Part shown: positions 27,851 through 32,637 of the stretch, in pieces
Numbering within the stretch: position 1 is the stretch's first letter
Layout: each line of letters begins with the position of its first letter
Assembly: GCA_905478995.1 (NCBI GenBank)
Contig: CAJQKT010000097.1
Location: 1-36,242 of the forward strand
Reading direction: 5' to 3'
DNA from: an uncultured Pseudomonadales bacterium
Lineage (GTDB): Bacteria > Pseudomonadota > Gammaproteobacteria > Pseudomonadales > UBA7434
Length of the DNA: 36,242 bases
Notes under the pieces: model-generated
What the model saw: the letters and a program-made list of their open reading frames with translations, nothing else
Told to the model about the DNA's origin: nothing
Databases searched by the model: none
Made by a program: the position numbers and the translations under genes

Positions 27851-28636
27851 TTAAAAATCATCGCCAAATGAATCAAAATCATCGGGTAAATCACCATTGG
27901 CTATATCTGAACGCCGCTTTTGTAAAAACACCTCTCGCAAAAATGTGTAGCGGTCACCGGTAATCAAACTTTCAACGTCCAGTATATCAGCGCGAACATC
28001 TACGACATCGAGTACACGCAGCCAATTGCGAGCCGACTCATGATCAAGGTAAGTGAGTGGCGACATATACATGTCTGGAAAAATTCCAACCGTGTCACGC
28101 AAGCTGCTACCACCTAGAAAGGGCAAAACAAGATAGGGCCCGCTCTCGACACCCCACACGCCGAGTGTTTGTCCGAAATGCTCGTCACGCTCGGTCAAAC
28201 CCCAGCCAGAGGCCACGTCGATAAGCCCCGCCAATCCAGCCGTAGAATTCACCACGAGCCGCCCAGTGGCAACGGCCATATGCTGAAAGTCCGCTTGCAA
28301 ACCTGCATTGAGTATATTTCTTACTTCACCCAAGTTATCAAAGAAATTGCTGACGCCCTTGTCGACGATACGTGGCGTACTCCAGCGATAAAACTTTGCC
28401 ACTGGCTTCAATGCCCAACGATCGAAAAACTCATTGAATGCAAATACCTTGCGATTAAATTGCTCATAAGGGTCAACAGGGCTTGCCCAGCTATTCGTTG
28501 GCGCCACCACGAAAAGCAAGCACAAACAAATAAAGCTAGCAGCACAAGCTCTCCGCCATAACTTAACCGAAAGCCATTGACCCCAATCCTTCGACAATAA
28601 AGCAAACGAGCTTGGGGGTAAGAACGTGAAAAACAT
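27851..28636 (-). CDS. mlaA: MlaA (VacJ), outer-membrane lipid asymmetry protein
   Basis: MlaA extracts misplaced phospholipids from the outer leaflet and passes them to MlaC. The family core is clear: DPYEQFNRKVFAFNEFFDRW, LKPVAKFYRW, VNSTAGLAGLIDVASGWGL, FGQTLGVWGVESGPYLVLPFLG, and SSLRDTVGIFPDMYMSPL. The 261 residues include a long N-terminal lead of about 30 residues before a hydrophobic signal segment. The signal ends NSWA-SPVDPY, a signal-peptidase-I style site, with no cysteine at the place of the usual lipobox. It may therefore not be a lipoprotein. The acidic tail (DLPDDFDSFGDDF) is typical. The remaining mla genes are not in the window. Confidence 0.93.
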   Translation of the reverse strand: MFFTFLPPSSFALLSKDWGQWLSVKLWRRACAASFICLCLLFVVAPTNSWASPVDPYEQFNRKVFAFNEFFDRWALKPVAKFYRWSTPRIVDKGVSNFFDNLGEVRNILNAGLQADFQHMAVATGRLVVNSTAGLAGLIDVASGWGLTERDEHFGQTLGVWGVESGPYLVLPFLGGSSLRDTVGIFPDMYMSPLTYLDHESARNWLRVLDVVDVRADILDVESLITGDRYTFLREVFLQKRRSDIANGDLPDDFDSFGDDF

Positions 28637-28800: not shown

Positions 28801-29619
28801 TCACTCTAAATAATAGATGATATCTAGGCTATGTAATTGTTCGAGAAGGACCCGACCACCATCAACCACTTGAGCCGGCTCGGGGTGCTGCAGTTCGATG
28901 GCAATTCTTTGGAGCAAATCTCGACCGCTAGTGCCAGCACCTTGCTCCAAAACCTCCAACATACGTCCAGTCACCGCATTGCATTCCAAAAATCTGACTT
29001 GGTCTGCCCGATTACGATAAACCACCAAACACACAGGATCGGCACTGGGCTGATGAGGCTGATAGTGCTGACCAATTTTATGCACTGGATAATTAAAAAC
29101 CATTGGCCAAGCCAGTGGCGATAAATGAGGCACGCCCTCAATGATTGCCGTGTCGCCAGCGTGGCTTATATAGGTTGGCGGGATTTCAGCATCCGCAAGA
29201 AACAGTGCCGATTCCGCCCATTCATAGCGAGCCAACTCTAACAAAAATGGTTGATCACAACCTCTCGCGCTATGCTCAGTGTCTAAATAACTAATAAATT
29301 CACGACCCAACTCTGTAAAATAAGGCGTTTGAGATGAATGAATATGAATAAAGCTGCGTATCAAGCCCTGCCAATCATCGTCCCCATAAAGCGAGCGTAT
29401 AATGGGAAACCCGCTTTGCATAAAATTTTCAATATTTTTATAAATGAGTTCTCGATAGATCTGTAGGCGGCGATTCTCTACAGCGGGTGGCGCAGGATTC
29501 ACCAAAGGATTGCGCAAATGATCGCTAAACGAACTCTGAATAGTAATCGTGCTCACTAGCGCATTAGCAGCACCCTCTGCACCACTAGTATTTTTGCTAT
29601 TGGGCATGTAGCCTGCCAT
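28801..29619 (-). CDS. hvfC: HvfC (DUF2063), partner protein of the HvfB enzyme
   Basis: DUF2063/HvfC proteins partner DUF692 enzymes in making copper-binding modified peptides. They probably bind the precursor and present it to the enzyme. The N-terminal helical domain is recognisable (RLQIYRELIYKNIENFMQSGFP, IIRSLYGDDDW, FIHIHSSQTPYFTELGREF, LLELARYEWAESALF), with a C-terminal domain after residue 160. I use ATG 29619, with AAGGCGAG at about 8 bases; a TTG at 29664 would add 15 residues. It overlaps the end of hvfB by about 20 bases, showing tight coupling. The length is about 272 residues. Confidence 0.85.
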   Translation of the reverse strand: MAGYMPNSKNTSGAEGAANALVSTITIQSSFSDHLRNPLVNPAPPAVENRRLQIYRELIYKNIENFMQSGFPIIRSLYGDDDWQGLIRSFIHIHSSQTPYFTELGREFISYLDTEHSARGCDQPFLLELARYEWAESALFLADAEIPPTYISHAGDTAIIEGVPHLSPLAWPMVFNYPVHKIGQHYQPHQPSADPVCLVVYRNRADQVRFLECNAVTGRMLEVLEQGAGTSGRDLLQRIAIELQHPEPAQVVDGGRVLLEQLHSLDIIYYLE

Positions 29620-30460
29620 CAAGCTCGCCTTTACGCGACCTTTGGGCGCCTCGCACCTGCTCAACCTCAGCTAACAACTCGGCCAGTGGAGGGAAGTTGA
29701 AATCGCGCTCGAGTAGCGTGGGCACAACACCGAACAAGCTATATGCTTCGCGTAACAACTGCCAAACCGGTTCTATGACTGCGGCGCCGTGAGTATCAAC
29801 TCGCAAATCCTCAGATTCTACAAAATGTCCGCCTACATGCATGTATGCAATGCGCTCAGCAGGCAACTTTTGCATAAAGTCGACAGCCTCATATCCATGA
29901 TTGATGCTGTTGACATAAACATTATTGACATCTAACAGAATGTCACAGTCGGCCTGCTTTGCAACAGCATTAATAAATTCTATTTCGGAAATTTCTTGTT
30001 CAGGCGCAGCATAGTAAGACACATTCTCTAGGGCTATTCGCTGACCCAAACAATCCTGCACTTGCAATATTCGCTCAGCAACAAAACTAATTGCATCGCG
30101 TCTAAAGGGAATCGGCATCAAGTCATAAAGGTGACCATGATCACCACAATAACTCAGATGCTCGGAATAGATGGGGCATTGGTGTTGTTTTATAAACAAA
30201 CCTATGGACTTGACCAATTCGGTATCAATGGGAGCAAAACCGCCAATATTGAGTGACAAACCGTGCAAAGTTAGCGGTACTCGCTCAGTCAATGCACGAA
30301 GCTTTTTAGCGTATTGTCCGCCAACTCGAATCCAATTCTCAGGTGCCACCTCAATAAAATCGAAAGCCCCCTGCGATGCTGCTGCTAAATCAGCTGCAAT
30401 TTCCCGACGCAAGCCCACGCCAGCTAGTGCAGCATCTGCCGGCCAGCATGCTACTGACAT
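29597..30460 (-). CDS. hvfB: HvfB (DUF692), multinuclear non-heme iron enzyme
   Basis: DUF692 enzymes use a two- or three-iron centre and oxygen to modify cysteines in peptide precursors. The Haemophilus HvfB makes oxazolone-thioamide pairs that bind copper. Here the TIM-barrel metal-binding residues are visible in VPLTLHGLSLNIGG, YSEHLSYCG, IALENVSYY, LLDVNNVYVNSINHG, YMHVGGH and VDTHGAAV, with LLERDFNFP near the end. Length is about 287 residues. I chose ATG 30460; a TTG five codons earlier is possible. Its precursor gene lies 91 bases upstream and its partner gene overlaps it downstream. Confidence 0.93.
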   Translation of the reverse strand: MSVACWPADAALAGVGLRREIAADLAAASQGAFDFIEVAPENWIRVGGQYAKKLRALTERVPLTLHGLSLNIGGFAPIDTELVKSIGLFIKQHQCPIYSEHLSYCGDHGHLYDLMPIPFRRDAISFVAERILQVQDCLGQRIALENVSYYAAPEQEISEIEFINAVAKQADCDILLDVNNVYVNSINHGYEAVDFMQKLPAERIAYMHVGGHFVESEDLRVDTHGAAVIEPVWQLLREAYSLFGVVPTLLERDFNFPPLAELLAEVEQVRGAQRSRKGELDGRLHAQ

Positions 30461-30551
30461 AGTCGGACTAACCAAGCTGTTAACGGAAACCTCACTTGTT
30501 CGCCGAGTAGCAAACAGGCGGGTATATTAGAAATTAATGCGTTGCAAGTGG

Positions 30552-30827
30552 TTAACCGCCACATTTACCTTCGCCACACTTGCCTTCGCCACATTTTCCT
30601 TCATCACCCTTAGACTCTTCGCTTCCAGACGCGCCACCACAAGAACCTTCACCACATTTGCCTTCGCCACATTTACCTTCGGCGCCTAAATGTAAAATGT
30701 CATAGCCGGTTGACAGTGGCTGCGCAGAAAAGGGATTAACCTCGGCATTAGCGCCAGCTGTAATAGCCGTAGCAAGAAAAGCTGCCCCCAGGGTAACCGA
30801 TACCGGTTTTACATTACGTTGACTCAT
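30552..30827 (-). CDS. hvfA: HvfA-type secreted EGKCG-repeat precursor peptide
   Basis: This 91-residue protein has a signal peptide (MSQRNVKPVSVTLGAAFLAT.. ending TAGANA before EVNPF), a short linker (QPLSTGYDILHLGAEG), and a C-terminal Gly/Cys/Lys/Glu-rich region. That region holds five EGKCG units and one EGSCG, six cysteines in all, in two groups of three. This is the HvfA/bufferin type: the EGKCG cysteines are the sites HvfB modifies, giving a periplasmic copper-binding peptide. ATG 30827 has GAGGAG at 6 bases. The frame is open 42 codons further up, but that part lacks a start signal. It has its own upstream region behind a terminator. Confidence 0.93.
   Translation of the reverse strand: MSQRNVKPVSVTLGAAFLATAITAGANAEVNPFSAQPLSTGYDILHLGAEGKCGEGKCGEGSCGGASGSEESKGDEGKCGEGKCGEGKCGG
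30558..30681 (-). repeat. 15-bp coding repeats encoding EGKCG units in hvfA
   Basis: Two blocks (about 30558-30603 and 30637-30681) each contain three near-identical 15-base units, split by a Ser/Gly/Glu-rich spacer. The units differ mainly at third codon positions (TGT/TGC, GGT/GGC/GGA, AAA/AAG). Such arrays can expand or shrink by slippage, changing the number of copper sites. Confidence 0.85.
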
Positions 30828-31016: not shown

Positions 31017-31040
31017 GAAAAAGGAGCGGCCATAGGCCAC
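31017..31040 (-). terminator. Probable terminator between the hydrolase gene and hvfA
   Basis: On the minus strand GTGGCC and GGCCGC pair (one G-T wobble) around the loop TAT, followed by TCCTTTTTCC. It lies about 75 bases after the hydrolase stop. It separates that transcript from hvfABC. Confidence 0.6.
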
Positions 31041-31113: not shown

Positions 31114-32637
31114 TCAGAGACAGCCAGCAAGCTGCTTCGATTCGCCGTGCAATGCCAGCTGCTCGATACTCTCATTGAGTGATGGCTTCTGAACATTTGC
31201 GTCTACCCTACCAGGCTGCGAATTAGCGCTTTGCGTTTCACTGTCGGTAGAGCTCAGGTCGGCCCGGCTTATGTGTTTGTTATAAAAAGACTCAACTGCA
31301 AGAGTGCTCTGCTTGTCATCACTCTTCGCATGAATAATTGCCGCGCTAGCTTCGCATCCTGAAACCAGCGTATCAGCCATTTCAACTAGGACTGGGGCAA
31401 TGACACTATCTTGCGTGGCGCTCGCTTGCTTGGCAATCACCGGAGCTTGCGTCTGCTCCAGCCAGCTTTGCAGCGGAGCGAACAAGTCCTGCTCGGCACT
31501 CTGATCAAGCAACATGGATAGATGGTTGTAGCGCCGCTTACTTGCTGCTATTTGGTCCACGACTAATAGCCTTGCATCATGCGGGCCTAATTCATGAATG
31601 AAATTTCGCACATCAACAAGGTTTGAAAATACCTTATCGCTAGCTGCTGCCAAGTGCAATGTTGGCGGCACTTTGGCGCTGAGCAACGCGGCGTGATAAT
31701 CGAACCCATCATCACCACACCAAGACTTACCATTCATCCAGCTGGCATACGTTCGATACCAACTCGCATTTTCATCAGCAGTACCTAAGCCCAATCGTGT
31801 TGCCGGAAACAAGTTGCGCCAGCTAACGAGTTTCTCAGTTAGGGAGTGACAAAACAATTTCACACAAAGCCCTGCAATTCGCTGGGTTGCGCTAAACCGT
31901 CGGCGCCCATTAAAAAACACCCATTGTTTTGCGCAGCGCTGTGCTTCTGGCATTCTGGCCCAAGCCGCGCTCAAGAGCACGGCGCCAAAACCGTGAGCGA
32001 CCCAAACATCCGGGCCTGTAGCGCAGGGCTTAAGAGTCTCAGCTGCAGCAATTTTCTGTGTATTGGTCACGACAACACTATGTTGAGCAGCGGACTGCAG
32101 TAGCGCGGGAATAGCCTCAGTAATCAAGTCATGCACGGTTAAAGATGACTGCTGCTGATCTGGCACTAAGCTCCGCCCTCGCCCTCCTAGATCGGCAACA
32201 AACACCTCATAACCTAGGCCTGCCAAGTAACGGGCCAACCCACGATTTGAGTCATCATAAAAAATACGCCCACACTCTGCCTCCCCATGCAGCATAAATA
32301 CACTGCGTCTGGGCTGACCATGAGAATTGGTTAAACGATCCAATAGCTCAGAGGGAAAATGTGTAACATCGTGCTGATTCGGCGTTTCGGCTGCAGGCAA
32401 AAAATGCCGCAGATGAAGCTGCTCACCACCGGACAGCGACACCCAAATTGAATTGACTTTGAGCATGGAACTGACATCCGCCTGCTGCCCGCCACCAATA
32501 GAATTATGCTCCGCGCTGTCATGACGGGCGCACATCGCTTCGTCGTCAGCAAACGCGTCTAACTGGCGCTCTGCTTGCTGAGCCAAACTACTGTTTAGCG
32601 AACTAGTGGGTATTGGTTGAAGTCGATCGTTTGCCAC
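31114..32637 (-). CDS. Alpha/beta-hydrolase-fold protein lacking the nucleophile serine
   Basis: This 507-residue protein has an alpha/beta-hydrolase core (about 60-390): the oxyanion strand SVFMLHGEAECGRIFYDD, LARYLAGLGYEVFVADLGGRGRS, and a late Asp (AAASDKVFSNL) and His (RRYNHLSML) that fit catalytic acid and base. The nucleophile elbow reads WVAHGFGAVLL, so the serine of the usual GxSxG-type turn is glycine (codon GGT). It is flanked by a polar N-terminal region and a C-terminal extension of about 120 Ser/Ala-rich residues. The GTG start at 32637 lies inside the end of hrpA (43-base overlap). The start may be later, for instance ATG 32466. The substrate is unknown, and a non-enzymatic role is possible. 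Confidence 0.75.
   Translation of the reverse strand: MANDRLQPIPTSSLNSSLAQQAERQLDAFADDEAMCARHDSAEHNSIGGGQQADVSSMLKVNSIWVSLSGGEQLHLRHFLPAAETPNQHDVTHFPSELLDRLTNSHGQPRRSVFMLHGEAECGRIFYDDSNRGLARYLAGLGYEVFVADLGGRGRSLVPDQQQSSLTVHDLITEAIPALLQSAAQHSVVVTNTQKIAAAETLKPCATGPDVWVAHGFGAVLLSAAWARMPEAQRCAKQWVFFNGRRRFSATQRIAGLCVKLFCHSLTEKLVSWRNLFPATRLGLGTADENASWYRTYASWMNGKSWCGDDGFDYHAALLSAKVPPTLHLAAASDKVFSNLVDVRNFIHELGPHDARLLVVDQIAASKRRYNHLSMLLDQSAEQDLFAPLQSWLEQTQAPVIAKQASATQDSVIAPVLVEMADTLVSGCEASAAIIHAKSDDKQSTLAVESFYNKHISRADLSSTDSETQSANSQPGRVDANVQKPSLNESIEQLALHGESKQLAGCL

Follow-up and report, generated by a model that had tools for sequence, protein, structure and literature searches.

An hvfABC operon that most likely makes a 5-thiooxazole copper-buffering peptide in a marine bacterium, and its divergence from a sister genome

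The hvfABC locus

The window, i.e. the whole 36,242-nucleotide stretch of DNA that we analyzed, derives from a marine bacterium and carries hvfA, hvfB, and hvfC on its minus strand (30827-28801), all with open frames (Table 1). Sequence and family profiles confirm the genes and motifs that an initial annotation had described here. The most likely start of hvfB is the ATG at 30460, with a TTG at 30475 as a possible alternative. The genes hvfB and hvfC overlap by 23 nt, and 91 nt separate hvfA from hvfB; as such, the "tight operon" of the initial annotation is compact but not gapless. Its placement behind a terminator found no support, because our scan returns 5 sites compared with a mean of 5.2 in shuffled sequence. 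Overall, simple scans for terminators and promoters show no excess over shuffled sequence, although the stem of one weak hairpin (31040-31026), followed by a T-rich stretch, is also present in the sister genome G007. The genome has a single MNIO gene, the hvfB of this operon.

Table 1. Features of the hvfABC locus (window coordinates)
Feature	Position	Strand	Evidence
hvfA, precursor peptide, 91 aa	30552..30827	-	Sequence; NF050137; NF050188
hvfB, MNIO (DUF692) maturase, 287 aa	29597..30460	-	PF05114, NF003818, PDB 3bww, 106 relatives
hvfC, DUF2063 + NGO1945_C RRE-type partner, 272 aa	28801..29619	-	PF09836, PF22106, NF050145, PDB 3dee
mlaA, syntenic neighbor outside the hvf system	27851..28636	-	PF04333; adjacency conserved
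Terminator-like hairpin (weak), orf507/hvfA interval	31026..31040	-	Stem and T-rich tail kept in G007
Tract of raised divergence vs G007 (L032), hvfA codon ~6 to hvfC codon ~161	29138..30811	.	Two-breakpoint fit; four-fold silent sites

Upstream of hvfA, orf507 (window 31114-32637) encodes a product of 507 aa with a GxSxG-like GHGFG motif. Searches of this product against Pfam and NCBIfam give no match, and the motif together with its overall look suggests an alpha/beta hydrolase. The gene is kept at the same place in the genus and in some relatives.

Precursor and modifying proteins

The core of HvfA reads EGKCG, EGKCG, EGSCG, a short linker, and three further EGKCG units—i.e. two triplets in which the third unit has Ser for Lys—with Cys residues at 53, 58, 63, 79, 84, and 89. 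The five EGKCG and one EGSCG units of the initial annotation are thus borne out, and more than two EGxCG sites arise in none of 20,000 shuffles of the mature-region residues. The protein opens with a basic N-terminus, a hydrophobic stretch, and an ANA|E site, all similar in relatives when compared by eye, and this comparison points to a probable Sec-type signal peptide cleaved after ANA (residues 26-28). A conserved stretch, VNPFSAQPLSTGYD (NPFSA..L..GY), is also found in relatives. HvfA passes the repeat-domain model NF050137 KCGExKCG_twice (30.1 bits, cut-off 19.5) and fails the strict HvfA equivalog NF050188 and, because its score there (33.4 bits) lies under the cut-off of 95, profile comparison places it as an HvfA-family repeat precursor and not a strict equivalog. 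Searching the genome with NF050137 for second HvfA-like precursors gives no match, but the known hvfA is likewise missed by this search.

The DUF692 enzyme and DUF2063 partner that had been proposed both pass curated cut-offs. HvfB matches PF05114 (E 5.7e-101) and the HvfB family NF003818 (416.6 bits, cut-off 360), while HvfC has a DUF2063 domain (residues 27-112, PF09836) and an NGO1945_C RRE-type domain (167-263, PF22106), and passes the HvfC-family model NF050145 (276.3 bits, cut-off 142). Matches to the solved MNIO protein PDB 3bww (E 1.1e-69) and to the solved partner protein PDB 3dee (E 4e-08) fix the folds of HvfB and HvfC, respectively.

The iron-site residues of HvfB (H66, H101, E145, D177, N179, H208, D222, H224, and E251) are invariant in 106 relatives, as is D253, the counterpart of the proposed catalytic base FonB-Asp249. 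In the same alignment, R18, R19, N180, and F254 are conserved, and R18/R19 and F254 match FonB Arg15/Arg16 and Phe250, which set Lys-Cys specificity; the correspondence with FonB is our reading of the alignment, by motif. These residues, like the genes, the family membership of HvfB and HvfC, synteny, and selection, are read directly from the window and its relatives. Compared with the sister genome, dN/dS ranges from 0.07 to 0.23 across the three genes (hvfA 0.07 and hvfB 0.08, both with dS near saturation), and such low values point to purifying selection on hvfABC.

Precursor motifs and DoxX among relatives

The initial annotation had singled out the triplets, the one Ser site, and the lack of a neighboring DoxX gene. 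All of these are present in the window, but they are frequent in relatives, and therefore none sets this copy apart. Among 73 related precursors, Lys precedes Cys at 436 of 504 sites and Ser does so at 38, followed by Arg, Gln, Ala, and Thr. At least one Ser site occurs in 17 of the 73 precursors, and three units in a row are seen in 12. A core free of Lys, as in G007, recurs in two precursors of the set (L031 and L072), making it rare and not unique.

No DoxX gene lies next to the window operon, and the genome's sole match to DoxX lies elsewhere, on contig C48. Using a rough membrane-segment filter, we find a DoxX-like gene after hvfC in 19 of 97 relatives, and detect none at this place among relatives that share the hrpA-mlaA slot. 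Because the gene is present in just these 19 and is missing in Microbulbifer mmrABC, an adjoining DoxX gene is not required for HvfABC membership. It had been named hvfD, whereas in Haemophilus the operon's DoxX-like protein goes by the name HvfX (PMC13419390).

Two side observations concern other loci. The HvfA-like precursor at L020 (G031) consists of six cassettes, each made up of one Ser-Cys and one Lys-Cys site (xSCGEGKCG). At L057, L069, L081, L082, and similar Woeseiaceae/Gammaproteobacteria loci, an HvfB relative occurs with a DoxX gene and no EGKCG precursor by the pattern used; these may have other precursor types.

Predicted modification and export

HvfBC, FonBC, and the Neisseria pair each install 5-thiooxazole on EGKCG peptides (PMC13097082, PMC13419390), and by homology the window product should carry 5-thiooxazoles as well. 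Chemistry, export, and copper binding are drawn here from these studied relatives. In the proposed pathway, HvfC would bind the putative Sec-type leader of HvfA and present the core to HvfB, an iron enzyme that would use O2 for a four-electron oxidation of each EGxCG Cys (-4 Da) to 5-thiooxazole. Modified HvfA would then leave through Sec, with removal of the signal peptide, and up to six thiooxazole thiolates would hold Cu(I), either within the periplasm or on the cell surface, so that copper is buffered rather than scavenged. Haemophilus HvfBC prefers the full-length peptide including the signal sequence (PMC13419390), which suggests that the signal peptide also serves as leader. As for the EGSCG site, FonBC accepts Ala, Arg, or Thr before Cys (repeat position 3) and refuses Phe and Glu; Ser is absent from the FonBC variants named, and given those accepted, it should pass and the site is probably also modified.

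The chemistry first proposed for this locus was that of oxazolone/thioamide pairs, as in methanobactin. Such groups were the original 2024 assignment for Haemophilus HvfA, as cited in PMC13419390, and the -4 Da shift is identical for both isomers. However, 5-thiooxazole has since replaced this assignment for the Haemophilus product in work by two groups, one using alkylation-assisted HMBC NMR (PMC13097082) and the other stating that its authors and others have made the reassignment (PMC13419390). Moreover, HvfB is far from MbnB (equivalog TIGR04159, 49.5 bits, cut-off 325), failing the methanobactin test, and DUF2063/RRE partners accompany thiooxazole makers in all characterized cases (PMC13097082). 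We thus regard oxazolone/thioamide pairs as extremely improbable here, and retain 5-thiooxazoles as the expected product.

Synteny and loss across the genus

The gene order hrpA - orf507 - hvfABC - mlaA - rssB - rssC is common to the genus, and the same order, with or without orf507, is found in Spongiibacteraceae, Dasania, Zhongshania, and Porticoccaceae. Trees of HvfB and RssB agree within the genus, which points to vertical descent. In two members, G005 and G008, orf507 adjoins mlaA with no hvf genes between them (L135, 8448-10452, and L134, 6267-8266, respectively), and a third, G006, has no MNIO match, its contig ending in mlaA. Because the RssB tree groups G005, G006, and G008 in a single supported clade, the simplest reading is that the operon was probably lost once. 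That three genomes of the genus do without it indicates that the operon is dispensable.

We also considered whether the operon is decaying in the window lineage, as an incomplete motif set, a Lys-free sister core, and losses nearby could imply. Specifically, the window has its EGSCG unit and G007 has four EGACG units, the operon is absent from G005 and G008, and hvfB has changed faster in the G007 lineage (14-17 unique changes compared with 2-8, with most outgroups). Against this, all frames are open and the catalytic residues intact in both the window and G007, dN/dS is low, and many relatives have Ser, Ala, or Arg before Cys, of which Ala and Arg are named as accepted by FonBC and Ser should be by the same pattern. 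Decay is thus very unlikely.

A tract of raised divergence against the sister genome

The nucleotide identity between the window and its closest genome, G007, drops sharply over most of hvfA, throughout hvfB, and into the first part of hvfC. A two-breakpoint fit places this tract from 30811 to 29138, with 31% differences inside compared with 10.7% outside, and protein identity, which is 88 to 97% for the neighboring genes, is 80% for HvfB and 71% for HvfC. The breakpoints were chosen from the data, and the alignment is uncertain across the hvfA core and the gap that follows; as such, the test at silent sites is the firmer evidence. Four-fold silent differences reach 14/24 in hvfA and 54/96 in hvfB, compared with 0.16 to 0.29 in the flanks (hvfB vs flanks, Fisher P = 1e-8). 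Within hvfC, they fall from 23/28 in codons 1-135 to 10/50 in codons 136-270 (P = 1.4e-7), so that the right edge of the tract lies between the DUF2063 and RRE-type domains. The G007 branch is also long (0.26 vs 0.05).

Fast protein change would explain abrupt edges and elevated silent divergence less well than replacement does, and the tract is probably a block allelic replacement by a diverged allele, in either the window or the G007 lineage. Acceleration by selection only is unlikely as its cause, since silent sites rise too. We also considered a general recombination hotspot at hvf. Of the 14 other close pairs considered, none of those whose flanking genes allow a comparison shows raised hvfB silent divergence, and in three of them it is lower; the tract is therefore particular to the window/G007 pair.

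The G007 precursor (L032:7728-7982) reads GEGACGEGACGEGACGEGACGG and then ends, with its frame intact; its core consists of four EGACG units without lysine, and the active site of its HvfB is intact. A tentative reading, to which we give somewhat short of an even chance, is that the precursor core, the maturase, and the DUF2063 half of HvfC swap among relatives as one recombining block that breaks just before the RRE-type domain, and that the G007 allele has lost all core lysines where the window keeps five. If true, these two alleles would offer a natural way to ask if modification or copper binding depends on the Lys before Cys.

Physiological role

The best explanation for the window locus, which we hold with high confidence, is a vertically inherited hvfABC (oxazolin/Buf_EGKCG/captophorin) copper-buffering operon making 5-thiooxazoles. 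The initial annotation was right to propose an MNIO system of the HvfABC type whose precursor carries six sites and is exported, with copper as the probable target, the last point being taken from relatives. The physiological role is the least certain part of this explanation, and those relatives suggest, as a best guess, that the exported peptide buffers copper. Tested EGKCG peptides bind copper (PMC13097082, PMC13419390, PMC12538549), and the genome has one Cu-ATPase and no multicopper oxidase PF07731, a weak fit to the idea that the periplasm requires a further copper sink.

We rejected a copper-responsive element ahead of hvfA: a comparison of six genus members finds almost nothing in common in their upstream regions apart from the ribosome-binding site, and only those of the window and G007 are well conserved with each other.

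The thiooxazole peptide could also serve mainly in redox or oxidative-stress defense, with another metal, or in copper acquisition. Microbulbifer MmrABC proteins are not induced by copper (PMC12538549), gene clusters of this type have been linked both to metals and to oxidative stress (PMC13097082), and beside the operon we find neither a copper-type regulator nor a conserved promoter motif. However, copper binding by the tested EGKCG peptides argues the other way, and we consider a main role other than buffering unlikely, though a more serious contender than decay or the oxazolone chemistry.

The window copy itself adds little to what is known, and the surrounding genus is more useful. Its members have close copies with Lys, Ser, or Ala before Cys, four to ten sites, and one operon-free clade at the same position—i.e. 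natural variants for the roles of the EGKCG lysine, of site number, and of operon loss in its cost to copper tolerance.

Comparison with known systems

The window hvfABC is an ordinary representative of a family described only recently, whose chemistry and likely role are already known. The oxazolin system of nontypeable Haemophilus influenzae (HvfABC with the DoxX-like HvfX) has a Sec-type leader, as is probable for the window HvfA, and shares the six EGxCG cysteines and an HvfB-type MNIO with an HvfC-type DUF2063/RRE partner in a single operon. By contrast, its sites form three AEGKCGEGKCG pairs where the window has two triplets, and the window has one Ser-Cys site and no adjoining DoxX gene.

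Microbulbifer mmrABC, which makes bulbicupramide, also comprises three genes without DoxX in a marine gammaproteobacterium, and has five to eight EGKCG cysteines, with six thiooxazoles in the studied strain (PMC12538549). Its core is laid out differently, as cassettes in pairs flanked by Lys-rich sequence. Fontiphorin (FonABC, Fontimonas thermophila) and other captophorins share the EGKCG repeats and the MNIO specificity residues Arg-Arg and Asp-Phe, whereas FonA has seven sites with other spacing.

Bufferins (BufABC) are Sec-exported, as predicted for HvfA, use an MNIO and a DUF2063/RRE partner, and carry thiooxazoles, with copper buffering shown in vivo. Their precursors are of the DUF2282 or Buf2 type rather than EGKCG repeats. 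HvfB fails the BufB equivalog NF050167 (260.2 bits, cut-off 310), and HvfA has no match to DUF2282, Buf2 having no model in the libraries searched.
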